DNA of 64,000 bases, from positions 62,001-126,000 of the forward strand of contig JAFUIR010000014.1 in the NCBI GenBank assembly GCA_017468395.1, written 5' to 3'. The notes under the pieces are model-generated. The model made no database searches and was not told the DNA's origin. It saw nothing but the letters and a program-made list of their open reading frames with translations. Position 1 is the first letter of the stretch; every line of letters begins with the position of its first letter. Below, one piece after another: positions 29,810-56,954 of this stretch. The translations under genes and the position numbers were made by a program. Source of the stretch: Lachnospiraceae bacterium. Its GTDB lineage: Bacteria > Bacillota > Clostridia > Lachnospirales > Lachnospiraceae.

Positions 29810-29842
29810 AAAAAGAACTGTTATTTTGCAACAGTTCTTTTT
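29810..29842. terminator. Bidirectional terminator between ylmH and pyrI
   Basis: A perfect 13-base stem (AAAAAGAACTGTT and AACAGTTCTTTTT) with a 7-base loop, flanked by A-run and T-run, between convergent stops at 29782 and 29853. Confidence 0.93.
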
Positions 29843-29852
29843 TAGTGGTCAA

Positions 29853-38232: not shown

Positions 38233-38237
38233 TAGTT

Positions 38238-38436
38238 GGTGGGATTAGGGAATGGCCGGAATTATTGGGTTTATACAAAAGTTTTTACGAAGACTGTGAA
38301 AAAACGTCAGTACTTGGATTTACAAGCACTCGTGCGAAGGAAATCCTTAGTACTGTTACGTTTTTTACCAAGTGAGAACGTGTCTGAGTAGAAACTATTT
38401 GTATAAACCAATATTCTAGTCATTCCCAATCCCACC
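38238..38436. repeat. Structured intergenic repeat, copy 1
   Basis: A 199-base nested inverted repeat that fills the gap between the HD gene and folP. The outer arms GGTGGGATTaGGGAATG and its complement match with one mismatch, then GGTTTATACAAA pairs, then AAAAAACGT with ACGTTTTTT, AGTACT with AGTACT, GGATTT with AAATCC, closing on GCAC-TC-GTGC. The right arm carries a 36-base block (38351-38386) that is 33/36 identical to a block of copy 2. No open frame is credible in it. Confidence 0.85.
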
Positions 38437-38464
38437 ACACCAACACCGCAAAAGGAGGATGCAA

Positions 38465-39268
38465 ATGAAAATCGGAAACAGAGATTTTTTGGATACAGGC
38501 AAAACATATATCATGGGCATCCTGAACGTGACCCCGGATTCCTTTTCTGACGGCGGTAAGTGGACGGACGAGACAGCCGCCCTTTGCCGTGTGGAGCAAA
38601 TGATAAAAGAGGGTATGGATGTACTTGATATCGGCGGTGAGTCCACCAGACCGGGATATACCATGCTTTCGGAGGAAGAGGAAATAGCACGGGTGGTTCC
38701 TATTATAGAATCAGTTAAAAGAAGATTTAACATTCCTGTTTCGCTGGACACATATAAAGCAAAAGTGGCCCGGGCAGGTATTGATGCGGGCGCAGATTTG
38801 ATTAATGACATTTGGGGTCTTAAGTATGACGATAAAATAGCAGGTGTTATTGCAAAAAGCGGTGTTTGTTGCTGCCTGATGCACAACCGGAAAGAGGCGT
38901 TATACCACGATTTTATGCAGGATGTGGCGGCTGATTTGGCAGACACCATATATTTAGCAAAAAAGTCGGGCATAGCCGATGATAAAATCATATTAGATCC
39001 CGGTGTGGGCTTTGGAAAAACTTACGAGCACAATCTGGAAGTGATTGATTCCCTGTCAGAGTTGAAGGTGCTTGGTTATCCTCTGCTCCTTGGTGCCAGC
39101 AGAAAATCGGTGGTGGGACTTACCCTGGATTTGCCGGTGGAGCAGCGATTAGAGGGCACTTTGGTAACTACCGTTTGGGCGGTGCAGCAGGGGTGTATGT
39201 TTGTGCGTGTCCATGACATTAAGGAGAACGCAAGGGCAATCCGTATGGCGCAGGCCTTACTAAGATAA
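38465..39268 (+). CDS. folP: Dihydropteroate synthase
   Basis: Joins dihydropterin pyrophosphate to p-aminobenzoate; 267 residues. The family signatures MGILNVTPDSFSDGG and DIGGESTRPG are intact, as are LDPGVGFGKT and GASRKSVV; sulfonamides act at this site. The frame could begin at ATG 38459, but the ribosome site AAAGGAGG (38451-38458) directly abuts it; ATG 38465 has a spacing of 6. The structured repeat lies just upstream. The folate genes around it leave no doubt about function. Confidence 0.96.
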   Translation: MKIGNRDFLDTGKTYIMGILNVTPDSFSDGGKWTDETAALCRVEQMIKEGMDVLDIGGESTRPGYTMLSEEEEIARVVPIIESVKRRFNIPVSLDTYKAKVARAGIDAGADLINDIWGLKYDDKIAGVIAKSGVCCCLMHNRKEALYHDFMQDVAADLADTIYLAKKSGIADDKIILDPGVGFGKTYEHNLEVIDSLSELKVLGYPLLLGASRKSVVGLTLDLPVEQRLEGTLVTTVWAVQQGCMFVRVHDIKENARAIRMAQALLR

Positions 39269-39287
39269 GAAAGGTACAGGTATTCTT

Positions 39288-40109
39288 ATGGACGAAATCA
39301 GAATCAGAGAATTGGAAGTGTATGCCTACCACGGGGTGTTCCCGGAGGAAAACGAAAAAGGACAGCCCTTTTTTGTGAATGCCACACTTTATACCGATAC
39401 CAGAAAAGCGGGACAGACAGATGAACTGGAATACTCCACCCATTATGGGGAAGTTTGCTATCTCATAAACCGCATTATGAAGGAAAATACGTGGAAGTTA
39501 ATTGAGACTGTGGCAGAAAAAGTGGCAGAGGAGATTTTGCTGACTTATCCTTTGGTACAGAAAGTGCAACTGGAAATCCGAAAGCCAAGTGCTCCCATCG
39601 GACTTCCCTTTGGCAGTGTTTCCGTAGCCATTGAGCGGGGCTGGCACAAAGTGTATATTGCCTTCGGTTCCAATATGGGAGATAAAAAGCAGCATATACA
39701 AAATGCCATTAAGGGCTTGAAAACCCACCCTCACATTATGGTGCAGACTGTCAGCGATTTTATTGTGACTAAGCCATACGGCGGCGTGCCGCAGGAGGAA
39801 TTTTTAAATGGTGCAATGGAAATAGAGACGTTGCTATCCCCTGTGGAACTTTTAGATTTTCTGCATGAACTGGAACAAAGAGAAAACCGGGAGCGCACCA
39901 TCCATTGGGGTCCCAGAACTTTGGATTTGGATATTTTGCTCTATGACAATCTGGTGTATGAAGATGAGCAGTTGATTATTCCCCATGTGGATATGCAAAA
40001 CAGGGATTTTGTGTTAAAGCCTATGGCGCAAATTGCTCCGAATATGCGACACCCCATTTATAAAAAGACAATGCAGGAGTTGTGTAACCGGTTGGACAAA
40101 ATAAAATAG
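39288..40109 (+). CDS. folBK: Dihydroneopterin aldolase - HPPK fusion
   Basis: A 273-residue fusion of two successive folate enzymes. Residues 1-120 are FolB, dihydroneopterin aldolase (EIRIRELEVYAYHGVFPEE; LIETVAEKVAEE). Residues 122-273 are FolK, the pyrophosphokinase (AFGSNMGDKK, ENRERTIHWGPRTLDLDIL, IPHVDMQNRDFVL). Fusion of the two is common in Clostridia. It follows folP after 19 bases, and ends the folate operon. Confidence 0.95.
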   Translation: MDEIRIRELEVYAYHGVFPEENEKGQPFFVNATLYTDTRKAGQTDELEYSTHYGEVCYLINRIMKENTWKLIETVAEKVAEEILLTYPLVQKVQLEIRKPSAPIGLPFGSVSVAIERGWHKVYIAFGSNMGDKKQHIQNAIKGLKTHPHIMVQTVSDFIVTKPYGGVPQEEFLNGAMEIETLLSPVELLDFLHELEQRENRERTIHWGPRTLDLDILLYDNLVYEDEQLIIPHVDMQNRDFVLKPMAQIAPNMRHPIYKKTMQELCNRLDKIK

Positions 40110-40227
40110 TTTCAGCCTGTGTCATCCTGCAACAGAATCCGGTGAATTAAGACTTGCTGAATGGCAGTATTTATCATAAAATGTCTATATACAAAAGAGG
40201 CTGTTTTACAGTCGGAAAGGTTAAATC

Positions 40228-41724
40228 ATGTACGCAACATTTTGGGCTTTGGTTCCACCGCTTATAGCAATTGTTCTGGCGCTGGTTACCAAAGAAGTTT
40301 ACAGTTCTTTATTTGTGGGGATTCTGGTGGGGGCTTTGTTTTATGCAGGCTTTAATCCTGAGGGAGCATTGCTGCACATGTTCAACGACGGTTTTGTGTC
40401 GGTGCTGTCAGATACTTACAATATAGGTATTTTGATATTTTTAGTTTTATTGGGAATTTTGGTATGTCTGCTGAACAAATCCGGCGGCTCTGAGGCTTTC
40501 GGACGTTATGCAGCGAAAAAAATCAAAGGAAAAACCGGAGCACAACTTATGACCATTGTGCTTGGTATTTTGATTTTTGTAGACGATTATTTTAACTGCC
40601 TGACAGTGGGAAGTGTTATGCGGCCTGTGACATCCAAGCATAAAGTTTCCAAAGAAAAACTGGCATATCTGATTGATGCTACGGCAGCTCCGGTTTGCAT
40701 TATCGCCCCCATTTCTTCCTGGGCGGCAGCGGTAACCAGTTCCGTGGAGAGGGATGATGGATTTACTTTGTTTTTGCAAGCCATTCCTTTTAACTTTTAT
40801 GCCCTGTTTACCATCCTGTTTATGATTGCGGCAGTTTTGATGAAAGTGGAATTTGGTTCCATGAAAACCAAAGAAGACGCCGTGGAACACATGCAGGATA
40901 TGGCAGAAGAAGTGACCCAAAAGACCGGCAATAAAAACGGAAAAGTCATTGATTTGATTATTCCCATTGTCTCTTTGATTGTCTGCTGCATTATCGGTAT
41001 GATTTATTCCGGCGGCTTTTTTGAAGGGGTGGATTTCATTACTGCTTTTTCCGACTGTGATGCTTCCGCAGGACTCATGCTCGGCAGTTTTATAGCGCTG
41101 GTTATTACGATTATTTATTATATGCTTCGCAGAACCATGAAATTAAAAGAGTGTATGGAATGTGTGCCGGAAGGATTTAAGGCCATGGTGCCCGCTATTT
41201 TGATTTTGGTATTTGCCTGGACCTTAAAGGCCATGACAGACAGTCTGGGGGCAAAAGTATTTGTGGAAACAGCAGTAAAAAACAGTTCCATTATGCTAAG
41301 TCTGCTCCCGGCGATCATTTTTGTGGTTGCTTGTTTCCTTGCTTTTGCCACAGGAACCAGTTGGGGAACGTTCAGTATCCTGATTCCCATTGTAGTGGCA
41401 ATTTTTGCGGAGACAGATTACACCATGATGGTGATTTCCATTTCTGCATGTATGGCAGGTGCGGTATGCGGCGACCATTGTTCTCCCATTTCCGATACCA
41501 CCATAATGGCATCGGCGGGAGCGGAGTGCGACCATGTAAGTCATGTATCCACGCAGCTTCCCTACGTCATTTTGGTAGCAGTGATTTCCTTTGTGACATA
41601 CATAGTGGCAGGTGTGACCAAAAGTGCACTTATCAGTCTGCCAACCGGATGCGTTTTAGTATTCGCAGTTTTATTCTTCCTTAAAGTAACGGGACAGAAA
41701 AAAGCAAATGAGGGAGGACAATAA
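40228..41724 (+). CDS. NhaC-type Na+/H+ antiporter
   Basis: Membrane transporter of 498 residues with about 11-12 helices, of the NhaC family, including the conserved FVDDYFNCLTVGSVMRP and CGDHCSPISDTTIMAS motifs. It exports Na+ in exchange for protons, though some members carry other substrates. A ribosome site GGAAAGG lies 10 bases before the ATG. The stop overlaps the next start by one base (ATAATG), so it is translationally coupled to the PilZ gene. Confidence 0.9.
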   Translation: MYATFWALVPPLIAIVLALVTKEVYSSLFVGILVGALFYAGFNPEGALLHMFNDGFVSVLSDTYNIGILIFLVLLGILVCLLNKSGGSEAFGRYAAKKIKGKTGAQLMTIVLGILIFVDDYFNCLTVGSVMRPVTSKHKVSKEKLAYLIDATAAPVCIIAPISSWAAAVTSSVERDDGFTLFLQAIPFNFYALFTILFMIAAVLMKVEFGSMKTKEDAVEHMQDMAEEVTQKTGNKNGKVIDLIIPIVSLIVCCIIGMIYSGGFFEGVDFITAFSDCDASAGLMLGSFIALVITIIYYMLRRTMKLKECMECVPEGFKAMVPAILILVFAWTLKAMTDSLGAKVFVETAVKNSSIMLSLLPAIIFVVACFLAFATGTSWGTFSILIPIVVAIFAETDYTMMVISISACMAGAVCGDHCSPISDTTIMASAGAECDHVSHVSTQLPYVILVAVISFVTYIVAGVTKSALISLPTGCVLVFAVLFFLKVTGQKKANEGGQ

Positions 41725-43067
41725 TGGATTACAACGAAAAATATTTTGAGAAAAATATAAGTGCGGAAAGTATTATTGAACTGGTAAAAGACGCAAGTAA
41801 TTCCATCGTGGACGGTGCGACCGTGGTCAGAGAGTTGGAAGAGGAAAACAGAGACGGTGCTGCGGTTGTGGTAAACAGCATGGAGGAACTTGCAGGAAAC
41901 ACCCAGATGCTTAACGAAAATGTAACTTCTACCATGGAAGGAACAAAAGAGATAAATAACCAAGTGGCAAACTTGACGGATTTACTTGGGCATATTGTGC
42001 AGACCAGTGAAAAATCAACAGTGGATGCAGTAGAGAGCCTGGGGGAAGTGGAAAATGCCCTGCAGGCAGCCGGCGAAATTGAGAAACTGGCAGGAAGTAT
42101 ACAAGATGCGGTAAGCGGTGATGCAGCCAAGGCCGTGGCAGACATTTTACAGTTTGCATCGCAGATACGGCAAAATATGCAAAATGTCAATGAAAGTATC
42201 GGCATGATTGCGGAGGACTGCGGAGAACTTTGCGATGAAATTCAAATGGTGGATGAGACTGTAAAAAAAGTGGAAGAATCCAACAATAACATGGCCGGTA
42301 ATGTGAAGCAGATGCAGAATATTATGGGATGTGTGATGGAGAATGTGATTGATTGTGAAACCATCGCCGCAACCATGTTAAGTAAATATGAAGAAACTCT
42401 CCGCAACGTAGAAAAAATCGAAAATGTTGTGGAAAAACTGGTGGAAGAACTGGGTGAAGGCGGATTTATGAGCCTGGATGATGTGGTGCCTGGGATGAAA
42501 GTGGTGCTTACTGATGAGGGTAGCGGCAAAGAATGTCATACAGAAGTTGCCGCCGTGCAGGACGGAAAGATTATGCTGGGAGCAACCAAAGAAAATACCG
42601 ACTACTTTGCCCAAAACAATGCCTCAAAATATGAAGTGCGCATTATCGTAAATAATGCCATGTATATATGGAAAGAACAGGAAGTTACCCAAGAACAAAG
42701 CGAAGAGAATTTTTATCGGTTGATGCTGGAGGGAAAACCGAAAGTTGTCAACAGAAGAAAGTATCCGCGACTTGCCATGGAAAATGCCTGTGATGTGTAT
42801 TTGAAAGCAAAAGACTTAAGTTTTCCGGGAAAAATGATTAATATCAGCGCCGGCGGTTTTGCAGTCAGTTGCATGGCTGATGAGTTTGCAGATGCCATAG
42901 GAGAAAAAATACGTATAACTATTCCGGAATTTGAACTGACAAATGCAAGGCAGTTGTCAGGTACCATTATCCGCACGACAAAGGACCGTGAACATTACAT
43001 TATCGGGTGCAGAATGCCGGAAGATAATATGGAAATCAGAGCTTATGTGGAAAAGCAATTAAAATAG
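41724..43067 (+). CDS. Soluble coiled-coil (chemoreceptor-like) protein with PilZ domain
   Basis: A 447-residue protein without membrane helices. Residues about 10-240 form a long alpha-helical region rich in Asn, Gln, Glu and Val that resembles a chemoreceptor signalling coil but lacks the conserved hairpin tip. Residues about 340-447 form a PilZ domain with the c-di-GMP-binding residues RRKYPR (near 343) and NISAGGF (near 372). The middle (about 250-330) looks like a YcgR-type N domain. It probably responds to cyclic di-GMP. The link with the NhaC gene, which overlaps its start by one base, is unexplained. Confidence 0.8.
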   Translation: MDYNEKYFEKNISAESIIELVKDASNSIVDGATVVRELEEENRDGAAVVVNSMEELAGNTQMLNENVTSTMEGTKEINNQVANLTDLLGHIVQTSEKSTVDAVESLGEVENALQAAGEIEKLAGSIQDAVSGDAAKAVADILQFASQIRQNMQNVNESIGMIAEDCGELCDEIQMVDETVKKVEESNNNMAGNVKQMQNIMGCVMENVIDCETIAATMLSKYEETLRNVEKIENVVEKLVEELGEGGFMSLDDVVPGMKVVLTDEGSGKECHTEVAAVQDGKIMLGATKENTDYFAQNNASKYEVRIIVNNAMYIWKEQEVTQEQSEENFYRLMLEGKPKVVNRRKYPRLAMENACDVYLKAKDLSFPGKMINISAGGFAVSCMADEFADAIGEKIRITIPEFELTNARQLSGTIIRTTKDREHYIIGCRMPEDNMEIRAYVEKQLK

Positions 43068-43088
43068 AACCTTCTAAGAGGCTATTTT
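43061..43088 (+). terminator. Terminator overlapping the PilZ gene stop
   Basis: AAAATAG (43061-43067, with the stop codon) pairs with CTATTTT, with an inner CCTT/GAGG pair. The stem contains the stop codon. It is short, with a weak T tract. Confidence 0.5.
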
Positions 43089-43090
43089 CA

Positions 43091-43120
43091 TTGACAAGAA
43101 GAAAGTAAAGGTACTATAAT
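43091..43120 (+). promoter_or_regulatory. Promoter of the zinc-ribbon membrane protein gene
   Basis: A consensus TTGACA (43091-43096), an 18-base spacer and TATAAT (43115-43120), 44 bases ahead of the start codon. It probably also drives the three ABC genes that follow. Confidence 0.85.
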
Positions 43121-43163
43121 AATCGTTGTATAAACAAAAGAATGACCCGAGGGAGGACAAAAG

Positions 43164-44972
43164 ATGGTTTGTAAAAAATGTGGTAATACCATAAATGAAG
43201 GACAAGCGTTCTGCACTCAGTGCGGCACAGCTGTAGAAGAACAGGCTGCCGTGCAAGAGACAGTAGCAGTAGAGGAAGCAGCACCTGTACAGGAAGCAGC
43301 ACCCGTACAGGAAGCAACACCCGTACAGGAAGCAGCACCCGCACAGGAAGCAGCGCCTGCACCTAAAAAGCCCATTGATAAGAAGATTATTTTGGGCGTA
43401 ATTGCAGCAGCAGTAGTAGTACTTGTACTTATTCTGGCAAGTTCTGCATCTGCAATGGGCAACTTCTTTAAGAGAACATTCTCTGAACCGGAAGAATATT
43501 ATGCATATGTAGAAAAAGAAACAGCAAAAACAATTGCAGAATCAGCAGGCAGTTTGTATGAACAGTATGTTGCAAGTCTGAATCTGTATGACAAAGGCAC
43601 AAACGCAGAAGTCAACTTTAAGTTGACAGAAGAAGGCTCCGATATGCTCAGCATGGCAGGACTTGCAGGTGTAGACATGTCATGGCTTAAAGAAGGTAAA
43701 ATGACCATGGATGCTTCTGTAAAGAACGGCTTCTGGGGCGGTAATGCAGCTTTGGTTTTGAATGGCGATAACATTATCAGCGGTGACCTTGTTTTGGATC
43801 TCGAAGAGGAAATGATGTATGTGCAGATTCCTGAATTGACCAAAATGTACATGGGATTCGAAGAAGACGGATTGGATTATATGTTCGATATCACCGGAGA
43901 TGACCTTGATGAAATTCTGGATCTCACAGAAGATCAAAAAACATTGGAAAAAGCACTTCCCAGTTCTGCAAAAGTAGAAAAATTGGCTGAGAAATATATT
44001 AACATTGCTCTTTCTTGTGTTGATGATGTAAAGATGGCTGAAAAGACTCTGAGAGCAGAAGGCGTTTCCCAGGATACTTATCAGTTAAAAGTAACCATCG
44101 ACGACAAGGCTATGAAAGATATGGTAGAAGCAGTTGTCGAAGAGTTAGAGAAAGATAAAGATGTTAAGAAAATCATCGAAGACATTGCAAAAGCATACGA
44201 AGAAGATGAAGAAGATGCTTACGAAGAGTTCCTTGATATGTTAGATTCTTACAAGGATGATCTTGATTATGTTGTTGACAGTGATGATGAAATTGCGATG
44301 ACCGTTTGGGTTGACAAGAGTGGTAATATCTGCGGCAGAAGTTTTGAAACAGAAGATTACTATGGAAACAAAGAAGAAGTAAAATGGGCTATGCCTAAAA
44401 AAGGAAGCAAATTCGGTTATGAATTTGCAATAGAAGATGCTTATTCCAGCATGAAAGTAACCGGTACAGGTAAAGAATCCGGCGATAAAGTAAGCGGCGA
44501 ATTTGAAGTAAAATACAACGGTGCATCCCTTGTTGATATTGCGGTAGAAAAATTCAATACCAAAGATGCTCTGAAAGGTTACCTGAACGGAACATTTACA
44601 GTTTCTCTGTCCTCCGGTCTGAGCCAGATGATGGGATATAATACTGTATTGTCCATGCTTGCAGATACTGAATTTGTGATTGAATCCAACATGAAGAAAG
44701 ATTCTGTGGCTCTGGAAATTACAATCAATGATGATGAAGAAAAACTTGGTACAGTTTCCATGACAGCAAAAACCGGTAAAGGTTCCAAACAGTCTACTCC
44801 CAACGAGAAGAACGTTGTATCTGTCGAGGACTATAATGATTTGGAAGACTGGTGCGAAGAAGTAGATTACGATAAGGTACTGGACAAACTGAGCAAAACA
44901 GATTTACCTTCTGATTTTATCGAAATCTTAGATGATTACGATGATTTGGAAGAACTTATGGATGATATGTAA
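43164..44972 (+). CDS. Zinc-ribbon membrane protein with acidic extracellular domain
   Basis: A 602-residue protein. C3, C6, C17 and C20 form a zinc ribbon (VCKKCG...FCTQCG), then a spacer of about 50 residues with PVQEAA repeats, one membrane helix (about 73-94) and a large outside domain of about 500 residues that is rich in Asp, Glu and Lys. I do not recognise the outside domain. Ribosome site GGGAGGAC precedes the ATG. It lies 20 bases upstream of a three-gene ABC-2 transporter, so it may be its substrate or partner, or act in the cell envelope. Confidence 0.78.
   Translation: MVCKKCGNTINEGQAFCTQCGTAVEEQAAVQETVAVEEAAPVQEAAPVQEATPVQEAAPAQEAAPAPKKPIDKKIILGVIAAAVVVLVLILASSASAMGNFFKRTFSEPEEYYAYVEKETAKTIAESAGSLYEQYVASLNLYDKGTNAEVNFKLTEEGSDMLSMAGLAGVDMSWLKEGKMTMDASVKNGFWGGNAALVLNGDNIISGDLVLDLEEEMMYVQIPELTKMYMGFEEDGLDYMFDITGDDLDEILDLTEDQKTLEKALPSSAKVEKLAEKYINIALSCVDDVKMAEKTLRAEGVSQDTYQLKVTIDDKAMKDMVEAVVEELEKDKDVKKIIEDIAKAYEEDEEDAYEEFLDMLDSYKDDLDYVVDSDDEIAMTVWVDKSGNICGRSFETEDYYGNKEEVKWAMPKKGSKFGYEFAIEDAYSSMKVTGTGKESGDKVSGEFEVKYNGASLVDIAVEKFNTKDALKGYLNGTFTVSLSSGLSQMMGYNTVLSMLADTEFVIESNMKKDSVALEITINDDEEKLGTVSMTAKTGKGSKQSTPNEKNVVSVEDYNDLEDWCEEVDYDKVLDKLSKTDLPSDFIEILDDYDDLEELMDDM
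43275..43364 (+). repeat. Five tandem 18-base units in the zinc-ribbon gene
   Basis: Five imperfect 18-base units (starting at 43275, 43293, 43311, 43329, 43347) encode PVQEAA-type repeats. The units differ by few bases. Slippage could change copy number and thus the length of the spacer before the membrane helix. Confidence 0.9.
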
Positions 44973-44992
44973 TATATATTGGGAGAAAAGTA

Positions 44993-45670
44993 GTGTATCA
45001 AACAGGAATTGAGATTGCAGGAATCAAAAAGAATTACAAGAGCAAGACTATTTTAAAAGATATTACTTTTCAAGCAAAAAGAGGAAGTTGTGTAGGTTTA
45101 CTTGGCGGAAACGGCAGTGGTAAATCTACACTGCTTTCTATTATGGCCGGCGTTTTGAAATCAGACGCCGGTTCCTTTTTGTATGCGGGAGAAGATTTGC
45201 TGCAAAAGAAAGTGCTTGCTGAAAAGGTTATCGGCTATGTGCCTCAGGGGAACCCTCTTATGGAGGAACTGTCAGCATGGGACAATCTCCGTTTGTGGTA
45301 TTCCAAAGAAGAACTGTGCCGCGAACTGGAAAGTGGTGTGCTGAAAATGCTGGGAGTGGATGAGTTTATTAAACTTCCGGTAAGAAAAATGTCAGGCGGT
45401 ATGAAGAAACGTCTCTCTATCGGATGCTGCGTGGCTAACAATCCGGAGATACTGTTGTTGGACGAACCTTCTGCGGCTCTTGATGTGGTGTGTAAGGAAC
45501 GTATTTACAGTTATCTGGAAACTTATAAATCCAAGGGCGGCATTATTATTCTTGCCACCCATGACACACAGGAAATAGAACTGTGTGATAAATGTTATAT
45601 ATTGAAAGACGGAAGATTGAAAGAATATCAGTACGATGGTGATATTCATCATTTGGCAGGCTGTCTGTAA
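44993..45670 (+). CDS. ABC transporter ATP-binding protein
   Basis: ATPase of 225 residues. Walker A is GGNGSGKST, the signature is MSGGMKKRLS, Walker B is EILLLDEPSAALD and the switch His is in LATHDTQE. The start is GTG at 44993, about 5 bases after GGGAGAA; no ATG is nearby. Two ABC-2 membrane genes follow, so it energises that transporter, likely an exporter. It lacks the extra domains of importers. Confidence 0.93.
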   Translation: MYQTGIEIAGIKKNYKSKTILKDITFQAKRGSCVGLLGGNGSGKSTLLSIMAGVLKSDAGSFLYAGEDLLQKKVLAEKVIGYVPQGNPLMEELSAWDNLRLWYSKEELCRELESGVLKMLGVDEFIKLPVRKMSGGMKKRLSIGCCVANNPEILLLDEPSAALDVVCKERIYSYLETYKSKGGIIILATHDTQEIELCDKCYILKDGRLKEYQYDGDIHHLAGCL

Positions 45671-45684
45671 AACAAGGAGTAAAA

Positions 45685-48052: not shown

Positions 48053-48112
48053 TTAGTGCATTAGGGAATGATATATTTAAAGGCGTGCAAAAGCGTGCGG
48101 ATGGGAGTGCAT

Positions 48113-49216: not shown

Positions 49217-49226
49217 GAGCGGCAGT

Positions 49227-50132
49227 ATGATAAAGAAAATTTTCAGTAATAGCGGCCTGAAAGGCTGGCTGTATCTTTTACCGGCCATTCTGTTTTTGGG
49301 TGTGTTTATGGTGTATCCCCTGATCGATGTTTTTATTTACTCTTTTGAAGAGGGGTACAATTCCGCATCCCAGACTTATTTTGGGGTGGGAACCTATAAC
49401 TATTCTTATGTACTTCGTGACCCTTACTTTTTGCAGGCGGTAAAAAATACTTTTATATTGGTTATTATTACAGTGCCCCTTTCCACAGGGATTGCACTGC
49501 TGATTTCTGTGGGTTTAAGTTCTATAAAGCCTTTGCGGAACCTGTTTCAGACCATTTATTTTCTGCCTTATGTAACCAATACGTTGGCAGTTGGTCTGGT
49601 ATTTATGATTTTGTTCAAAAAGACTGCTTATTCGGACGGTTTGGTAAATTTACTGATTAACTGGTTCGGGGGCAGTTCCGTGGACTTTATTGACGGACCG
49701 TACTGGGCTAAAATGTTTGTACTTTGCTTTTATACCATCTGGGTAGTAATGCCCTTTAAGATTTTGATTTTGACCAGTGCCCTTTCTTCCGTAAATCAGA
49801 TTTATTATAATGCGGCAAAAGTGGACGGTACATCTAAGTTCCGCATTTTCAGACGCATTACACTGCCTATGATTTCGCCTATGATTTTTTATCTGGTAAT
49901 CACAGGATTTATCGGTGCTTTCAAGGCTTACAGCGATGCGGTAGCACTTTTCGGCACGGATTTGAATGCGGCGGAAATGAATACCATTGTAGGCTATGTT
50001 TATGATATGCTCTACGGCGACAGCGGCGGATATCCTTCTTATGCGTCCGCAGCGGCAATTATTTTATTTGCAATCGTACTTACCATTACTTGTATCAATT
50101 TGCTGATTAGCAAGAAAAATGTTCATTATTAA
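49227..50132 (+). CDS. ABC sugar-type permease 1 (UgpA-like)
   Basis: Membrane subunit of 301 residues with six helices and the conserved loop YYNAAKVDGTSKFRIFRRITLPMISPMIF that contacts the ATPase. The ATG at 49227 has AGGAGCGG at a normal distance; an upstream start at 49143 would lie inside the ATPase gene. It is followed 10 bases later by the second permease. Confidence 0.93.
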   Translation: MIKKIFSNSGLKGWLYLLPAILFLGVFMVYPLIDVFIYSFEEGYNSASQTYFGVGTYNYSYVLRDPYFLQAVKNTFILVIITVPLSTGIALLISVGLSSIKPLRNLFQTIYFLPYVTNTLAVGLVFMILFKKTAYSDGLVNLLINWFGGSSVDFIDGPYWAKMFVLCFYTIWVVMPFKILILTSALSSVNQIYYNAAKVDGTSKFRIFRRITLPMISPMIFYLVITGFIGAFKAYSDAVALFGTDLNAAEMNTIVGYVYDMLYGDSGGYPSYASAAAIILFAIVLTITCINLLISKKNVHY

Positions 50133-50142
50133 GGGAGGCGGC

Positions 50143-51015
50143 ATGAAGAATATGGATTTTAATAAAATTGAAAAAAGTGCCAAAACCCGCCAGAAAGTAG
50201 TAAGTACCATAACTTACGCACTTTTGGCAATATGGGCATTGGTGGTACTGTTTCCTTTTTACTGGATGATTTTGACGTCCGTAAAAAGTTACGGCTCCTA
50301 TAACTCCGAATATATTCCTAAGTTTTTTACATTGTCCCCCACATTTGAAAACTATGTGGAGGCATTTACGGCGGTGCCTTTGGCAAAATACTTTTTAAAT
50401 ACCACTATTTTTACAGTTTTGACAACGGCTGTTATGCTTGTGGTAATTACACTGGCGGCTTTTGCTTTTGCACGATTGGATTTCAAAGGAAAAAATGCGG
50501 CTTTTGTAATTTTTCTTTCCCTGATGATGATTCCCAACGAACTGGTTATCATCACAAACTTTGTGACCATTACGGAGTGGGATATGCGAAATACCTTTGC
50601 AGGACTGATTTTGCCATCCATTACTTCTGTATTTTATATTTATCTACTGAAAGAAAATTTTGAGCAGATACCGGACAGTTTATACTACGCAGCGAAAGTG
50701 GACGGCACATCGGATTTAAAGTACCTTCTGAAAGTGATGGTGCCTATCTCTAAGCCCACGCTGGTTACCATTACGATTTTGAAAGTTATCGAGTGCTGGA
50801 ACTCTTATGTGTGGCCCAGACTGATTACAGACGATGAAAATTACTTCCTTGTTTCAAATGGTATTCAGGAAATTAGGGAAAATGGTTTCGGACGTGAAAA
50901 CATTCCTGCCATGATGGCAGCGGTAGTGGTAATTTCCCTGCCCTTAATTATACTTTTCCTGATTTTCCGCAATAAGGTAATGGAAGGTGTATCAAGAGGA
51001 GGTACCAAAGGATGA
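50143..51015 (+). CDS. ABC sugar-type permease 2 (UgpE-like)
   Basis: A 290-residue permease with six helices and the EAA-type loop LYYAAKVDGTSDLKYLLKVMVP. The frame starts at 50119 but the ATG at 50143 follows GGGAGG and is preferred; ATG 50152 is another option. Its last bases overlap the binding-protein gene by 4. With permease 1 it makes the channel heterodimer. Confidence 0.93.
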   Translation: MKNMDFNKIEKSAKTRQKVVSTITYALLAIWALVVLFPFYWMILTSVKSYGSYNSEYIPKFFTLSPTFENYVEAFTAVPLAKYFLNTTIFTVLTTAVMLVVITLAAFAFARLDFKGKNAAFVIFLSLMMIPNELVIITNFVTITEWDMRNTFAGLILPSITSVFYIYLLKENFEQIPDSLYYAAKVDGTSDLKYLLKVMVPISKPTLVTITILKVIECWNSYVWPRLITDDENYFLVSNGIQEIRENGFGRENIPAMMAAVVVISLPLIILFLIFRNKVMEGVSRGGTKG

Positions 51016-52637
51016 TGAAAATGAGAAAAAAATGGTTATCCCTTCTCCTTTTGACAGTGCTGACAGTTGGAAGTGCCCTTTCCCTTACGGGATGTCACGG
51101 AAGAGAAGGCTTAGAACCCTTTGTGATTCCTGAGGAATTTGATACCTCCAGAGAGTATGACATTACTTTCTGGGCAAAAAACGACACCAACAAAACCCAA
51201 ACTATGATTTACGAGCAGGCCATTGCGGATTTTGAGGCGCTTTATCCCAATATCAATGTGAATTTGCGCTTGTATACGGACTACGGAAGAATTTACAACG
51301 ATGTTATTACCAATATTGCCACAAACACTACACCCAACGTCTGCATTACCTATCCCGACCATATTGCTACCTATTTGACAGGTGACAATCAGGTGGCCCC
51401 TTTGGAAGAGTTGTTAGTGGACGGGAAATATGGTCTTGGGGGCAGCGAAGTTAGGTTTGATGCCCCTACCAAAGAGGAAATAATTCCGAAATTTTTGGAG
51501 GAATGTGAATTTGGCGGACATTATTATGCCATGCCTTATATGCGTTCCACGGAAGCATGCTATATCAATAAAACCTATGTGGAAGCATTAGGCTACACTT
51601 TACCGGAAAAACTGACCTGGGACTTTGTGTGGGAAGTGTCCGATGCAGCCACCAAGCAGGATGCAGAGGGCAATTATCTGGTAAACGGACAGAAGGTTAT
51701 GATTCCGTTTATTTATAAGTCCACAGATAATATGATGATTCAGATGCTCCGGCAGAAAGACGCAGGCTATTCCACCAAGGAAGGTCAGATGCTTCTTTTT
51801 AACGATACCACGAAAGAACTGCTTTTTGACATTGCAGACCATGTGAAGTTGGGAGCCTTTTCGACTTTCAAGATTTCCAGTTATCCTGCCAATTTCTTAA
51901 ATGCAGGGCAGTGTATTTTTGCTATTGACTCTACGGCAGGTGCCACATGGATGGGAACAGACGCCCCTCTTTGCGACATTAGTGAAGAAAAAATCGTGGA
52001 ATTTGAAATTGAAGTTATGGAAATCCCCCAATTTGACCCGGAAAATCCGGAGATGATTTCCCAAGGTCCCTCTGTTTGTATTTTTAACAAAGAAGACCCT
52101 CAGGAAGTTATGGCATCTTGGCTTTTTATGCAATATCTGCTGACGAACAAAGTGCAGATTGCCTATGCCCAGACGGAAGGTTATGCGCCGGTCACATCCA
52201 AAGCACAGCAGGATCCGCAGTATTTGGACTATTTGAGCCGTGGGGGCGAAGACAATGAACTTTATTATGATGTAAAGATTGAGGCAACGGAGATTTTGCT
52301 TGACAACGTGGACAATACCTTTGTGACACCGGTGTTTAACGGCTCTGCATCCCTTCGTGATGCGGCTGGGCAACTTATTGAAAATACGGTAAAATCCGTG
52401 AGAAGAAAGCAGACCGTGGATGAGGCGTACATGGAAAGTCTTTACAGTGACACCATTTCCCTGTACCGTCTGGACCAGTTGGAAAGTCAGGGAGGAGCCC
52501 TTGGAGCGGATAAGGCGGCTCTTGGGGAAATGCCGGGGACTTCCGTCATATTACTTTCTTCTTTGGGAGTTGCATGGATACTTATTATCCTTTATGTAGG
52601 CTGTCAAATGATAAAAAAGAAGAGAAATAATCAATAA
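51012..52637 (+). CDS. Extracellular solute-binding lipoprotein with C-terminal membrane helix
   Basis: A 541-residue binding protein of the sugar type (family 1). The signal peptide ends in a strict lipobox LTGC with C28. The body (about 40-500) has the ordinary two-lobe layout. Residues about 515-533 (SVILLSSLGVAWILIILYVG) form an added hydrophobic helix followed by basic residues, so it could be anchored at both ends. The start overlaps permease 2 by 4 bases, with GAGGAGG upstream. The substrate is not clear; a sugar, oligosaccharide or polyol is likely from the transporter class. Confidence 0.88.
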   Translation: MMKMRKKWLSLLLLTVLTVGSALSLTGCHGREGLEPFVIPEEFDTSREYDITFWAKNDTNKTQTMIYEQAIADFEALYPNINVNLRLYTDYGRIYNDVITNIATNTTPNVCITYPDHIATYLTGDNQVAPLEELLVDGKYGLGGSEVRFDAPTKEEIIPKFLEECEFGGHYYAMPYMRSTEACYINKTYVEALGYTLPEKLTWDFVWEVSDAATKQDAEGNYLVNGQKVMIPFIYKSTDNMMIQMLRQKDAGYSTKEGQMLLFNDTTKELLFDIADHVKLGAFSTFKISSYPANFLNAGQCIFAIDSTAGATWMGTDAPLCDISEEKIVEFEIEVMEIPQFDPENPEMISQGPSVCIFNKEDPQEVMASWLFMQYLLTNKVQIAYAQTEGYAPVTSKAQQDPQYLDYLSRGGEDNELYYDVKIEATEILLDNVDNTFVTPVFNGSASLRDAAGQLIENTVKSVRRKQTVDEAYMESLYSDTISLYRLDQLESQGGALGADKAALGEMPGTSVILLSSLGVAWILIILYVGCQMIKKKRNNQ

Positions 52638-52642
52638 TGGTA

Positions 52643-52670
52643 TTGATTTATTGGGAGATTTTAGTATAAT
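52643..52670 (+). promoter_or_regulatory. Promoter of the OB-fold lipoprotein gene
   Basis: TTGATT (52643-52648), a 16-base spacer and TATAAT (52665-52670), about 70 bases ahead of the start codon. Confidence 0.6.
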
Positions 52671-52740
52671 AAAGGCGATGTTTATCTATAAACATTTCTG
52701 TAACTATTATGTTAAGAAACAACAGAAAGAGGAGAAAAAA

Positions 52741-53472
52741 ATGAAAAAAATCACAGCATTACTTATGGCAGTATTAATGGTATTTGGTCTTACTGCATGC
52801 GGTTCTGAAGACATTAACGCAAAATCCGAAGGCGTTATGACTTATGCAGAATATGCGGCAGCAGAACTTGATTCCGCAGTTGTAATCGAAGGCTATGTTC
52901 AGGCAAAACAGTCTTGGTGGAACAATTCCGCTACTGTTTATCTGCAGGACGGCGAAGGCGCTTACTTCGTATACAACATGGTTTGTTCCGAAGAGGACTA
53001 TGCAAAACTGGAGCAGGGTACCAAAATCAAAGTTACCGGTTACAAAACAGAGTGGGCCGGTGAAGTAGAAGTGGCTGAAGGCGCTACTTTCGAAATCATG
53101 GATGGTAACTATGTAGCAGAAGCACAGGATGTTACATCTCTGCTTGGCACAGATGAACTGATTGATAACCAGAACAAATTTGTTGCTTTCAAAGACATGA
53201 CAGTAGAAGCAAGCACAGATGCAAACGGTAACGAAGTTGCTTATTTGTACAAATGGGATGGTTCCGGTCAGGACGGCGATGATTTGTACTTTTACGTTTC
53301 TTTGAATGGTGAGAAATATCAGTTCACAGTAGAGTCTTATCTGTGCGACAACACAACAGATGTTTACGCAGCAGTTAAGAACTTGAAAGTGGGCGATGTA
53401 GTTGATATGGAAGGATTCCTTTACTGGTATGAAGGTGTAAACCCTCACATCACTTCCGTAACTGTAAAATAA
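52741..53472 (+). CDS. OB-fold-like secreted lipoprotein
   Basis: A 243-residue lipoprotein. Signal peptide with lipobox LTAC, C20. The rest shows two successive OB-fold-like regions (about 35-110 and 125-240) that each contain a core such as VVIEGYVQAKQSWWN... YLQDGEGAYFVYN. Such modules in secreted proteins often bind nucleic acids or sugars; the ligand here is unknown. The start at 52741 has GAGGAG seven bases upstream, while the frame opens at 52651. It is followed by a structured repeat that acts as its terminator. Confidence 0.82.
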   Translation: MKKITALLMAVLMVFGLTACGSEDINAKSEGVMTYAEYAAAELDSAVVIEGYVQAKQSWWNNSATVYLQDGEGAYFVYNMVCSEEDYAKLEQGTKIKVTGYKTEWAGEVEVAEGATFEIMDGNYVAEAQDVTSLLGTDELIDNQNKFVAFKDMTVEASTDANGNEVAYLYKWDGSGQDGDDLYFYVSLNGEKYQFTVESYLCDNTTDVYAAVKNLKVGDVVDMEGFLYWYEGVNPHITSVTVK

Positions 53473-53485
53473 TAACAGGAACATT

Positions 53486-53739
53486 AAAAGAACTGTTGTA
53501 GAGTAGTTATACTTGGATAGTAATTGTAAAAAGATTTCTGACGCAGACTCTTGAAAAACCTCAGCACTTAGGTGGTGGGCAGATGCTTTCACAGCAAATG
53601 ATTGCTTGCAACTCATGTGTTGTGAAAGTGTCTGAACAGCACCTTATGTACTGTTACGTTTTTCACGAAGTGAGAACGCGTCTGCAAAGAAACTTTTTAC
53701 AATGGATATCCAAAGCTATTACTCTACAACAGTTCTTTT
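53486..53739. repeat. Structured intergenic repeat, copy 2
   Basis: A 254-base nested inverted repeat between convergent genes. The outer arms are a perfect 20-base pair (53486-53505 and 53720-53739), containing AACTGTTGTAGAG and its complement. The next arms (TTGTAAAAAG near 53529 and CTTTTTACAA near 53692) and the inner CTTTCACA/TGTGAAAG also pair. The 36-base block 53649-53684 is 33/36 identical to copy 1. The T-run after the right arm lets it act as terminator for the upstream gene. The 87-residue open frame across it is not credible. Confidence 0.88.
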
Positions 53740-53764
53740 TTGTTGCGTTGATATACAGTCTAAC

Positions 53765-54586
53765 TTATGATGTGGGCTTGCGAAGCGGGCAGGCAGACAT
53801 GGAAATCTTGTCCTTTAACACAGTGAGCCCATTGTCTTCCAGATAGTCCTGCAAAATAGGAAGCGACTGGGAGGAGGTGGGGCCGATGATAATCTCGCCC
53901 ACAAGATCAGAAAGATGCATACCCAGTTTACCGCACATTCTGTTTAAATCCAGCGGATAATATTTTTTGATGCGGTCCATGGAAACATGGTATTTAGGCT
54001 CCACCGCAAACTCGTTGGAGATGAATGGGGAAACTACCAGACGGAATTCCCTTTCACTGGAAAAAGAAGGATGTTTAAAAGCGGCGGACTGCACCCATGC
54101 ATCGTTCATCAGATGCTGCAAAGCAGAGACACAACTTGAGAAATCCCCGCTTTTTTTTATTTGCCTGTAAAATTCCGTTACAAGGCGGTGTTCATGCATG
54201 TCTGACTGATAATATACTTCCTGCAGGGAAATGGCGCCGCCCACCATCCGCTGCATCAAATCTTCATGGAATGCAATGCACACACCTTGTCCCAAATGAC
54301 CGTACCGTTCCCACTGGGAAGCATCGTCACGGTATCTGGAAAAACAAGCCGCATAGGCGGAGTAATGAAATTCTTTTGCCAGTTCCTTTTGGAAAAAGGC
54401 TTCTGCCTTACGGGATTTTTCGTTTTCCCCGTCCTGATTCAAATTATCAATCACTGCTTTACAGATGCCATTCATAAAAAGGCGCATCTCGGCAGCATCA
54501 TTCATATTCAAAATATTGTTAAGGCGCAGTTCTGCGCAGCGGATAATCCCGTCGAAAGCTGCAAAATCAGTATAATGGTATAACAT
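53765..54586 (-). CDS. DUF2971 family protein
   Basis: A 273-residue soluble protein. Features of DUF2971 are present: an N-terminal HYTD motif, NDAAEMR, the CFSRYRDDASQWERYG stretch, and GVCIAFHEDL. The molecular function is not established; some family members lie in phage-defence loci. Ribosome site GGAGG is well placed and includes the stop of the Nudix gene, 3 bases upstream, so the two are co-expressed. It ends 26 bases from the structured repeat copy 2. Confidence 0.8.
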   Translation of the reverse strand: MLYHYTDFAAFDGIIRCAELRLNNILNMNDAAEMRLFMNGICKAVIDNLNQDGENEKSRKAEAFFQKELAKEFHYSAYAACFSRYRDDASQWERYGHLGQGVCIAFHEDLMQRMVGGAISLQEVYYQSDMHEHRLVTEFYRQIKKSGDFSSCVSALQHLMNDAWVQSAAFKHPSFSSEREFRLVVSPFISNEFAVEPKYHVSMDRIKKYYPLDLNRMCGKLGMHLSDLVGEIIIGPTSSQSLPILQDYLEDNGLTVLKDKISMSACPLRKPTS

Positions 54587-54589
54587 AAT

Positions 54590-55243
54590 TTACCTCCACA
54601 AATCAGATACAAAATACATAAGACCGGCCCATGTGTAGACCGAGTAGAAAAGTCCGTCGCTGTCACGTCCTGCTTTCAAAATTTCCTTCGCTTCAGAGAC
54701 AGAAAGAAGAGTAAATCCGTCAAAACATTCGCTTCCCACAGCCCCGTCCTGATTAAGGCAGGAAGTATCTTCCAAATAGATGATTCCGCAAACAAGGGCG
54801 TTGCTTTCGTCTGTCATGCCGGGGGAGGAAAACAGCAGGGGATTTATTACAAAAAAAGAATCCCTTTCACCGGGTATTATGCCCGTTTCTTCCGTGATTT
54901 CTCTTTTGGCAGCAGATAAAAGAGGATTTTCGCTTGCTACATCCTCTGCATCCAAAAGTCCGGCGGGAGGACTGAGCAGAAACTGTCCTGCGGGATAACG
55001 GTACTCCTTGGTAAGTAACAGTTTGGGCTCTTCATTTTTTATATTTAAAATAACCACGCATGTCACGGCATCCGGAAGCATTTGGCGGAAATCTGCATCA
55101 GACTTAATGGCCGCGATGTTTTCCAAAGGGCGCCTTGTAGCATCAAAATAATGCTTTCCTTCTTCATATTGCAAATCAAAGACTTTTATAAATTTCGACT
55201 CAAAAAGAGGCTTCACATTTTCTTTTTTTATCAGAGGTTTCAT
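54590..55243 (-). CDS. Nudix hydrolase, ADP-ribose pyrophosphatase type
   Basis: A 217-residue Nudix enzyme. The Nudix box is the stretch PAGLLDAEDVASENP... AAKREITEETGI; the GLLD-to-REITEE spacing is longer than in the plain motif. The fold and the acidic residues are those of ADP-ribose/ADP-sugar pyrophosphatases, so it probably cuts nucleoside diphosphate sugars. Ribosome site AAAGG precedes the ATG at 55243. The stop (TAA) lies inside the ribosome site of the DUF2971 gene, so the two are translationally coupled. Confidence 0.82.
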   Translation of the reverse strand: MKPLIKKENVKPLFESKFIKVFDLQYEEGKHYFDATRRPLENIAAIKSDADFRQMLPDAVTCVVILNIKNEEPKLLLTKEYRYPAGQFLLSPPAGLLDAEDVASENPLLSAAKREITEETGIIPGERDSFFVINPLLFSSPGMTDESNALVCGIIYLEDTSCLNQDGAVGSECFDGFTLLSVSEAKEILKAGRDSDGLFYSVYTWAGLMYFVSDLWR

Positions 55244-55286
55244 GGTAAATTCCTTTCAAAGTAAAGTACCTGCCTGTATCAATCTT

Positions 55287-55315
55287 ATTGTATTACAAAT
55301 CCGGGAAGATGGCAA
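55287..55315 (-). promoter_or_regulatory. Promoter of the Nudix-DUF2971 operon
   Basis: On the minus strand TTGCCA (complement of 55310-55315), 17-base spacer, TACAAT (complement of 55287-55292), about 45 bases ahead of the start at 55243. Confidence 0.5.
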
Positions 55316-55358
55316 ATAGGGAAAATAAAATAAAAAATAGACGAAATAAATCATATGG

Positions 55359-55387
55359 TTGAAATATTCAGAATATTCGTGTAGAAT
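55359..55387 (+). promoter_or_regulatory. Promoter of the six-helix chemoreceptor
   Basis: TTGAAA (55359-55364), 17-base spacer, TAGAAT (55382-55387), about 36 bases ahead of the start. This is a sigma-A style promoter, not a clear sigma-28 (flagellar) one. Confidence 0.55.
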
Positions 55388-55423
55388 TAATTTTAGGTTT
55401 ATACAAATATATGGGGTGGTTTT

Positions 55424-56821
55424 ATGAAAATTCAAAAGAAAAAAAATAAAAAAATGCTTACTCATGAAAAAATCTATAAAATCATGCAATGGTTACCGGT
55501 GGTGGTGGCATCTGTTTTCTTTTTAATTAACGCATTGAAAGGTAACACTTCTGCCATGATTGCCATCGGAATTTGTTTGGCAGTATTTATAGGGGTTTTT
55601 GTTACTATCAATGTGAAAAAAGTGTCTTTATATAAAAAAGAATATGTGCTTGCCGTAGCATTGCCTACATTGGTGTTTATTATTTCACTTTACAGTGGGG
55701 CATCCTACAGTGACGATTTCCCCTTGTATCTGGCAGTGCTGGCAATGACGGGTATGTTTTTGGAACCCCAATTTACGAAAATGCAGGTTTTGCTGGTAGA
55801 TATTTTTCTGGTGCTTATGTATGTGGTTCATCCGGAAAAATCAGGTGGTCTGTCTCAGTACATATTGTGCGGTGCCTGCTTTACGCTGGCAGCAATTTTG
55901 TTTTATCAGGTTATAAAAAGAGGTCGTGGATTTATCGAAATCAGTCAGGAGCAGGCGAAAGAATCCGAGACACTTTTAACCTCTATCAGAAGTATGGGAC
56001 AGGAATTGCAGGATGATTTTGCGGTTTCTTCCGCCAGAATTGAAACAAGTACAAAAGGGTTACAAAGAGAATCTGCTGCTATTGCACAAGGAGCCGGTTT
56101 AGTTTCTGACAGTTGTAATGTGGTGCAAGGCAAAATTCAGGATACCAAAGAACAGATTTTACAGTTAAACAATGGCGTAAAGCAGTTTGAAATGGCGCTG
56201 GGTGAAAATAAAAATAATATGGAAGCCATGAACCGGCAGGTAGATGCGGTTGGCGAAATCATCAGCCAGTCAGGGGCTGTGTTTAGGGACATGGAAGAGC
56301 AGATGAACCGGGTTGCCGGTATTGCAAAACAGATTAGCGACATCTCTTTTAATTTAACCATCTTGTCTATAAATGCGGCTGTGGAGGCAGCCCGTGCAGG
56401 GGAGGCCGGTGCAGGATTTGAGGTGCTGGCAGCGGAAATGAGGGCTTTATCGGAAAACAGTACCGCCTTTTCCAATCAGGTATCGGATGTGGTAAAGGAA
56501 GTATTGGAAGGTGTGGCAAAAACCTCGGAAAGATTTTCAGGCAGCGAGGAGGCTTTTTCACAGTCTGAAAAGTCTATGTCTGAGTTGGCAAACAGTTTTG
56601 AAAAACTGAATCATCAGTTTGGGGAATTGTATGGAAATATCGAATGTCAAAACCGCAATGTAAGCCAGATTGACTATATTTTTGCGGAACTTAACCAGAA
56701 AGTGGCAGATATGCACAGCAGTTCTTTGGCAAACCAGGATGCGGTAACAGAAATTGCAGATGCCATGACAGTATTTAGCGGCAATGTGGGTGAAATTGTA
56801 AAAAACACCCAGAGCGTTTAA
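55424..56821 (+). CDS. Chemoreceptor with six membrane helices
   Basis: A 465-residue methyl-accepting chemotaxis protein. The N-terminal 170 residues contain about six hydrophobic helices (near 20, 42, 70, 92, 113, 142) and no separate outside sensor, so the membrane part may be the sensor. The cytoplasmic part has the conserved tip [38 protein letters not shown] ribosome site precedes the ATG. The last codons overlap the left arm of the structured repeat copy 3. Confidence 0.88.
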   Translation: MKIQKKKNKKMLTHEKIYKIMQWLPVVVASVFFLINALKGNTSAMIAIGICLAVFIGVFVTINVKKVSLYKKEYVLAVALPTLVFIISLYSGASYSDDFPLYLAVLAMTGMFLEPQFTKMQVLLVDIFLVLMYVVHPEKSGGLSQYILCGACFTLAAILFYQVIKRGRGFIEISQEQAKESETLLTSIRSMGQELQDDFAVSSARIETSTKGLQRESAAIAQGAGLVSDSCNVVQGKIQDTKEQILQLNNGVKQFEMALGENKNNMEAMNRQVDAVGEIISQSGAVFRDMEEQMNRVAGIAKQISDISFNLTILSINAAVEAARAGEAGAGFEVLAAEMRALSENSTAFSNQVSDVVKEVLEGVAKTSERFSGSEEAFSQSEKSMSELANSFEKLNHQFGELYGNIECQNRNVSQIDYIFAELNQKVADMHSSSLANQDAVTEIADAMTVFSGNVGEIVKNTQSV

Positions 56822-56954
56822 TTGAAAAAAACGTAGTGGTACATAAAATAGTGGGGCTACAGATTAAATGATTTGTGAACAATCATTGTAATCTATAGCC
56901 CCACTTTTTAAGTACCGACGTTTTTTTAGGGTCTGTGACAAGAATTTTTACAAT
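56795..56954. repeat. Structured intergenic repeat, copy 3
   Basis: Outer arms ATTGTAAAAA (56795-56804, within the coding end) and TTTTTACAAT (56945-56954). The core hairpin AAAAAAACGT...ACGTTTTTTT (56825-56927) contains GGTAC/GTACC, GTGGGGCTA/TAGCCCCAC, AGATTA/TAATCT and AATGAT/ATCATT pairs. Relation to copies 1 and 2 rests on the arm order and on shared ACGTTTTTT and GTCTG...TTTTTACAATGG stretches; it lacks the 36-base block. Confidence 0.75.
56825..56927 (+). terminator. Terminator formed by the core of repeat copy 3
   Basis: Long nearly perfect stem ending in seven T residues, 3 bases after the chemoreceptor stop. It would also act on the convergent gene, because the left arm has seven A residues, which read as T on the other strand. 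Confidence 0.8.

Follow-up and report, generated by a model that had tools for sequence, protein, structure and literature searches.

A dispersed family of nested palindromes occupies three gaps of the 64,000-nt stretch of DNA analysed here (the window; Lachnospiraceae bacterium, GCA_017468395.1, contig JAFUIR010000014.1, forward strand 62,001-126,000). To judge from comparisons between genomes, the arms of these elements stay with their locus, and cores are often nearer to paralogs than to orthologs; the conserved core appears to be exchanged between copies. Arms that match each other and are particular to their copy, around a core of this kind, fit DNA that moves or recombines better than they fit an ordinary regulatory RNA. 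We favour, at a probability of about one half, a palindromic DNA element that is non-autonomous and would have its core copied between sites by some route.

Nested palindromes in the window and their relatives

The three regions fold far better than expected by chance. Region 38230-38445 (w1) reaches -91.6 kcal/mol (z -10.24), region 53480-53745 (w2) -121.8 kcal/mol (z -13.40) and region 56790-56980 (w3) -64.3 kcal/mol (z -7.51), and for none of them did any of 200 dinucleotide shuffles fold as well. The long stems that a sequence-only reading had placed at 38238-38436, 53486-53739 and about 56795-56954 are thereby confirmed. Its count of 33 equal bases out of 36 between 38351-38386 and 53649-53684 is also correct, and the match around this block extends to 51 nt at 86% identity. 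The kinship it had proposed among all three gaps goes beyond chance by the E values of model R1 (Table 1), which was built with w1 and w2 among its input and without w3. A common order of arms, claimed for all three, holds for w1 and w2; since w3 lies on the minus strand, it shows this order only once reversed. The MCP gene (55424-56821) ends within w3, where its stop codon lies.

Table 1. Coordinates of element copies and related features in the window (tab-separated).
Feature	Position	Strand	Match to model
Copy w1: outer palindromic arms and core; HD-domain/folP operon junction	38235..38444	+	
w1 core, short inner hairpin type	38289..38391	+	R1, E 1.2e-26
w1 GNRA-type mini-hairpin GT-GAGA-AC	38372..38379	+	
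Copy w2: full nested palindrome, convergent genes on either side	53486..53739	+	
w2 outermost stem, 5' half; same stem as in the plain terminator-like hairpin 29808-29843	53486..53498	+	
w2 outermost stem, 3' half with T-run	53727..53741	+	
w2 core, long inner hairpin type	53543..53689	+	R1, E 7.8e-38
w2 GNRA-type mini-hairpin GT-GAGA-AC	53670..53677	+	
Copy w3: inverted, decayed, no recognisable mini-hairpin; overlaps 3' end of MCP gene	56795..56954	-	
w3 core	56797..56936	-	R1, E 1.2e-9
Comparison hairpin, not an element: A-run and T-run, stem equal to w2 outer stem	29808..29843	.	

Each copy is a nested hairpin, composed of locus-specific outer arms, a conserved asymmetric core and a variable inner hairpin. 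The core carries a mini-hairpin whose loop is of the GNRA type in 111 of 113 copies. Conserved internal loops are present, and by eye many inner hairpins contain a C-GA-G / C-GA-G tandem. Sequence comparison also reveals derivatives from which the core is deleted.

Searches for further copies in this and related Lachnospiraceae genomes found many, dispersed and intergenic, in the chromosomes of these gut bacteria. With a covariance model, the own genome (2.6 Mb) yields 20 distinct copies at E<=1e-3, the two weakest of which are doubtful, and 26 of the 37 genus genomes sampled contain copies. Among 24 genomes of other families the model gave one weak match (E 5.5e-4). Across the order, 21 of 295 genomes hold copies; they belong to 10 genera, all of one family (f1), and the asymmetric core is kept across these genera.

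Rfam searched at gathering score with the window and 20 loci returned no match to the elements (only RNase P, a T-box and an L10 leader elsewhere), and the w1 gap gave none at E<=5. A known RNA was accordingly rejected as their identity, which agrees with the earlier statement that no known small RNA was recognised. A phage or plasmid origin was likewise rejected: IMG/VR contains none of three exact patterns, which divergent members could escape, and a distant blastn of w2 only against plasmids and phages found no match. In the open-access papers covered, by title and opening lines of the abstract, no such family is named for Lachnospiraceae.

Covariation of the core

Is the fold maintained as RNA or as DNA? 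Two-sided changes in stems commonly count as proof that an RNA is functional, and the core has them in abundance: at 13 of 26 core pairs in a MAFFT alignment (A2) and at 25 of 26 in an alignment fitted to the model (A3), with scores that none of 500 shuffles reached in either case. Core cells with two-sided changes number 530 and those with one-sided changes 14, with 16 GT and 15 AC cells. RNase P of the genus, used as a control, shows 232 two-sided and 80 one-sided cells, 219 GT and 46 AC; wobbles (GT) make up 0.5% of core cells vs 8.4% in RNase P, the two alignments differing in depth and divergence. Elements are oriented evenly with respect to gene direction, both in the own genome (10/20) and in other genomes (42 vs 36). 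Two-sided changes, scarce wobbles and an orientation blind to genes together point to maintenance of the element at the DNA level.

The opposite reading is a structured RNA, be it a 3' UTR element, an attenuator or a small RNA, in which the helices covary because the fold is the function. It would account for the strong covariation, the conserved internal loops and the GA tandems. The nearly invariant GNRA loop is an RNA hallmark and counts against a DNA element, as does a mild wobble excess in the proximal arms (GT 117 vs AC 62; 128 vs 109 when longer arms are counted). Set against these points are the near absence of wobbles and of one-sided changes in the core relative to RNase P, the even orientation and the empty Rfam result, and we consider a structured RNA unlikely; the regulatory RNA family that the sequence-only reading had offered as one of two possibilities finds no support here. 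A further point against the DNA element is that between orthologs the two arms change only partly in step: 25 one-sided breaks were counted vs nine compensated changes, four of them from one pair.

Why does it matter which molecule carries the signal? Template switching, ectopic repair and hairpin recognition are DNA-level processes that could imitate RNA covariation, and a two-sided signal with scarce core wobbles and no strand preference makes this family a natural test of them. For annotation, gaps of this kind would be easily mistaken for regulatory RNAs.

Sites, arms and the exchange of cores

Between two close species (G017 and G027), arms follow the locus and cores often do not. Of 13 orthologous sites, 10 have a core nearer to that of a paralog and 2 an arm nearer to that of a paralog; the paralog being picked as the best match among 30 or 53 candidates, these counts are raised. 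Two copies of the own genome (L138 and L139) have cores that are 98% identical and distal arms at 0.47 identity (random 0.45), and distal arms at random identity are seen in some own and G032 pairs. The G017 pairs with the most similar cores have distal arms at 0.59-0.78, above random, which speaks against the favoured reading. At one site the arms are equal and the inner helix is different. Most sites are common to G017 and G027, and five of six further G027 sites checked in G017 also carry the element or a remnant, which indicates slow movement between these species; no clean empty site was found.

Positions are, by sequence comparison, lineage-specific at the two genes tested, where none of 49 loci outside the own genome holds the element. 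The w1 gap at the HD-folP junction measures 230 nt; of 25 relatives that have an HD gene upstream, 22 show a gap of 9-97 nt. The own copies lie in 8 convergent, 10 co-directional and 2 divergent gaps, among the last C6:396559 (L136). Convergent gaps are enriched (8/19 with the element vs 35/233, p 0.004). Replication direction was rejected as a factor, the element strand agreeing with the GC-skew strand in 10 of 20 copies.

Could these be terminators of the host? On this account, bidirectional terminators or mRNA stabilisers would have grown long, their arms kept palindromic by template switching during replication and their cores homogenised by gene conversion, with no dedicated mobility. The outer stem of w2 resembles a host terminator, and an orthologous gene in another genome (G006) ends in a hairpin that shares its base with the stem of w2 and 29808-29843. 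The enrichment of convergent gaps and the many sites common to two close species fit as well, and PMC8794818 describes template switching as able to create and mend stems. However, the operon junction that contains w1 is short in most relatives, co-directional genes flank 78 of 119 copies in other genomes, and the asymmetric core has been kept across genera, so that we find this account doubtful. A stem followed by a T-run is present in w2 and absent in w1; over the 20 own copies, over-extension of the arm alignment made automatic terminator calls unreliable. Simple insertion of all copies into existing terminators suits w2 and does not suit some G032 arms (L119, L121), whose pairing runs for about 50-90 nt and is seldom interrupted. 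Usual terminators are shorter, and insertion into terminators probably does not explain all copies.

Mobility and comparison with known systems

The analysis found no autonomous copy and neither a transposase nor a recombinase. The Y1 transposase (PF01797) is absent from the own genome (92.7% complete) and present in 12 of 41 genus genomes; of the 12 genomes that have at least 10 element matches, several of them incomplete, 2 encode it. As it does not track copy number, it was rejected as a partner. Among 727 neighbouring ORFs of at least 100 aa at 83 loci, none has similar ORFs in more than four other loci. Flanks were inspected by eye only; some G017 and G036 copies have a TTGC-type repeat on both sides, and many G017 and G027 copies have common ends (CAGCC..GGCGTGACTTGC). 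We infer mobility from the dispersed, intergenic, multi-copy and, at two genes, lineage-specific occurrence. To this extent the earlier proposal of small non-autonomous mobile elements stands, and is the better half of its two readings, with neither a transposase nor a target duplication found to complete it.

How might a palindromic DNA element pass on its core? The hairpin would be extruded from single-stranded DNA and, by its fold, be recognised or cut. Another chromosomal copy would then be the source from which the core is copied, either by a dedicated structure-specific enzyme or when hairpin breaks are repaired (SbcCD-type) with a paralog as template. Arms could be kept complementary by template switching between them or by selection on the DNA hairpin. 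Sites tend toward gene 3' ends and, in at least one case (w2), lie within a terminator-like hairpin. A bolder version, to which we give little credence, has palindromic docking arms chromosome-wide with exchangeable cores. The core would travel as single-stranded DNA into locus-bound arms, moved by a structure-specific enzyme or by the repair of hairpin breaks, and position and core would have separate histories. If a core does move between fixed arms, this would be a new route of DNA transfer within a chromosome.

Among known systems, integron attC sites keep their structure with sequence left free, and have asymmetric bulges and a variable inner part. The element shares all three traits, but its outer arms vary too. 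By analogy, the copies could be recombination sites that fold as single strands and are served in trans by a tyrosine recombinase, and the exchange of cores between sites would fit; no cassette array was noticed around them, and we regard such an origin as highly improbable. Some insertion sequences target hairpin loops, for example IS1397 in REP loops. An insertion of this kind would split the stem of a palindrome into separate halves, such as those of w2; unlike such sequences, the copies studied have no coding capacity. In ERIC, NEMIS, YPAL and other stem-loop repeats the arms are conserved in sequence, whereas here the core is what the copies have in common and the arms vary from locus to locus. 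These repeats are otherwise similar, being long hairpins of comparable size, multi-copy and often intergenic (PMC2267715).

The REP/REPIN system differs in its end tetranucleotide (GTAG or CGTC), since GTAG at the stem is absent from the element consensus (A1/A2) and CGTC lies within the core stem, not at its end, and in its RAYT/Y1 transposase, here absent from the own genome and from 10 of 12 copy-rich genomes, several incomplete. REPs measure 20-50 nt (PMC8266576), compared with about 150-260 nt for the element; the copies in the window extend over about 160-254 nt. Like the element, REP/REPIN sequences are dispersed, mostly intergenic palindromes with a strand-asymmetric, irregular stem, and they form inverted doublets, which here occur in several species.

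Nested palindromes in the window and beyond

All three gaps of the window hold the long nested stems described in the sequence-only reading, and these are far more stable than shuffled sequence (z -10.24, -13.40 and -7.51 for copies w1, w2 and w3, respectively). Their sequences are related, as had been claimed, with the amendment that w3, which contains the MCP gene's stop codon, is decayed and lies in inverse orientation; w1 and w2 have a 51-nt block in common (86% identity). Read in the + orientation, a copy runs from an outer arm through approximately GCAGAC-YYTTGAAAAACGTCRGYACTTRG, an inner hairpin of variable length, CYTTAGTACYGYTACGTTTTTCAC, a mini-hairpin GY-GARA-RC and GYGTCTGC to the other outer arm.

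Location of the elements and associated features
Feature	Location	Strand	Description
w1	38235..38444	+	element copy
w2	53486..53739	+	element copy
w3	56795..56954	-	element copy
Plain hairpin	29808-29843		same stem as AAAAAGAACTG..CAGTTCTTTTTT
RNase P RNA (RF00010)	24729-25132	+	about 56-nt insertion relative to the model, containing hairpin GGAAGATTGCTTGCAATCTTC, which at its tip is similar to the TTGCTTGCAA tip in the elements' long inner hairpins
L316	G027:C250, near base 2921		ortholog of a doublet site in G017; the left arm is present in its outer part and is followed by other sequence
Inverted doublets, G017/G027	L066-L075, L079, L107, L217, L222, L225, L227
Inverted doublets, further loci	L290, L292, L293, L294

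How widely is the element dispersed? BLAST with w2 as query recovered more copies from the source genome, including derivatives (L011, L013, L020) that keep the arms and lack most or all of the core. A covariance model of the core trained on 17 cores (R1, E<=1e-3) finds 20 distinct copies in its 2.6 Mb, leaving out antisense matches to the same palindrome, in agreement with the proposed dispersed family. Arm pairing is slight in the two weakest of these 20 (E 1.1e-4 and 9.9e-4). R1 matches occur in 27 of 61 genomes, namely 26 of 37 in the genus (source genome included) and one, weak (E 5.5e-4), of 24 from other families; since at most 51 candidates per genome were scored, under stricter filters, per-genome counts are lower bounds (G017, at least 50) and zeros are soft. 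In an order-wide sample, with about ten candidates per genome scored, matches at E<=1e-6 were obtained from 21 of 295 genomes, representing 10 genera of a single family. The named relatives, with 5 loci in all, are MAGs of Lachnospiraceae recovered from the rectum of sheep and the colon of roe deer; viral, phage and plasmid collections gave no match with the queries used. Several species carry inverted doublets with cores about 100-650 bp apart, and some of those in G017 and G027, two of the compared genomes, enclose a small GC-rich hairpin (GCGGCG..GTTTAC..CGCCGC type) adjoining one element.

Gene context and orientation

At w1, 230 nt separate the HD-domain gene from folP. The former lies upstream of folP at 26 of 30 loci, own included (the best 30 of 39 genus genomes with folP), with a gap of 9-97 nt in 22 of 25 relatives and of 186, 285 and 781 nt, measured to the match start, in the other three. 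The element is absent from all 49 non-own loci of the two genes tested. The case for gain is weaker at w2, because a search of 1.5 kb in each of 20 relatives failed to locate its right neighbour; the orthologous gene of genome G006 terminates in AAAAAGAACTG..CAGTTCTTTTTT, a stem that recurs in the window as a plain hairpin.

Orientation relative to genes is even. The GC-skew strand and the majority coding strand are each followed by 10 of the 20 own copies, and among the 119 of 150 copies from other genomes with two neighbours called (simple ORF calls, doublets counting twice), 42 lie between genes parallel to the element, 36 between genes opposed to it, 28 between convergent and 13 between divergent genes. 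Of the gaps occupied by own copies, 8 are convergent, 10 co-directional and 2 divergent; convergent gaps account for 8 of 19 (one left out) versus 35 of 233 in a background that contains the elements too (p = 0.004).

Pairing of the core as DNA or RNA

Two-sided changes affect 13 of 26 core pairs in a MAFFT alignment, whose covariation score was matched by 0 of 500 shuffles, and 25 of 26 when 115 matches, 6 antisense ones among them, are aligned to the model. Here, 530 cells are two-sided (526 if identical rows are counted once) versus 14 one-sided, and mismatches are few (GT 16, AC 15 among 2913 cells). RNase P RNA of the genus, used as control (30 sequences, 101 pairs), gives 232 versus 80 and GT 219, AC 46 among 2613 cells (4.8:1), a comparison that serves only as a guide because the alignments differ in depth and divergence. 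This rarity of intermediates is an unusual feature of the core pairing. A hand register of 101 copies, 12 of 113 being left out for poor register, yields GT 13 and AC 39, 37 of the latter at one doubtful pair. Arm mismatches stand at GT:AC 128:109 with free extension (113 copies) and 117:62 within 25 nt of the core (147 copies, 23 skipped).

Of 113 copies, 111 have a GNRA loop in the mini-hairpin, and Watson-Crick pairing holds in 223 of the 226 cells of its two pairs. The motif is compatible with RNA, and also with the very stable mini-hairpins that exist in DNA. With moderate confidence, we read the core pattern together with the even orientation as maintenance at the DNA level.

Arm and core histories and a possible mechanism

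The close species G017 and G027 offer 13 element pairs at sites with matching flanks. Of 306 arm pairs compared, 259 are unchanged Watson-Crick, 25 one-sided breaks, 9 compensated double changes, 5 double changes with a one-side mismatch and 8 mismatched in both; thus, on this short scale, one-sided breaks are more frequent than compensated changes, 4 of the latter coming from one element pair whose arms are closer to paralogs. Mean core identity is 0.877 to the ortholog versus 0.944 and 0.953 to the best paralog, and mean arm identity 0.899 versus 0.824 and 0.801; a paralog is closer in core sequence at 10 of the 13 sites, in arm sequence at 2 of the 13. Five of six more G027 sites have an element at the equivalent position in G017 (one with only a remnant of the second copy, one with agreeing arms and a different inner helix in G017 sequence containing some N, another with three adjacent pairs altered together); at the sixth, the flanks lie on different G017 contigs. 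A G017 cluster searched in G027 gave a single matching site, its element truncated by other sequence. Locus L316 represents a deletion or rearrangement ending inside an arm.

Within the source genome, L137, L138 and L139 represent a second core subtype (TTTAACTACGTC helix) and differ in their distal arms; core identities are 0.93-0.98 and distal-arm identities 0.47-0.57 (random 0.45). Among seven G032 pairs with cores >=0.97, two have distal arms at 0.43 and 0.51 (random 0.47) and five at 0.62-0.65; the best 14 G017 pairs range from 0.59 to 0.78. The histories of arms and cores are therefore at least partly separate. Ectopic gene conversion is compatible with this, and so is a core that moves into arms. 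At L119, L121 and other G032 loci the element occurs singly; its arms are paired along about 50-90 nt, with few breaks, and vary strongly from locus to locus.

What process could produce this? We favour, at about one chance in two, a palindromic DNA element that is non-autonomous and has its core copied from one site to another. Sequence comparison establishes that the element is dispersed, that a site is specific to the lineage, that core pairs change on both sides and that arm and core have partly separate histories. The hairpin would be extruded as single-stranded DNA and cut, or recognised as a fold, and the core then copied from a paralog. Template switching, which is able to form stems as well as repair them (PMC8794818), would account for the arms without an enzyme, but leaves unexplained an asymmetric core conserved over 10 genera.

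Among the papers listed in searches of the open-access literature, no title or start of an abstract describes this family. By size, tag and transposase (PMC3733652, PMC8266576), the element is not a REP. The likeness to REP elements and to attC sites lies in strand-asymmetric folded DNA, and the element may work in a somewhat similar way.
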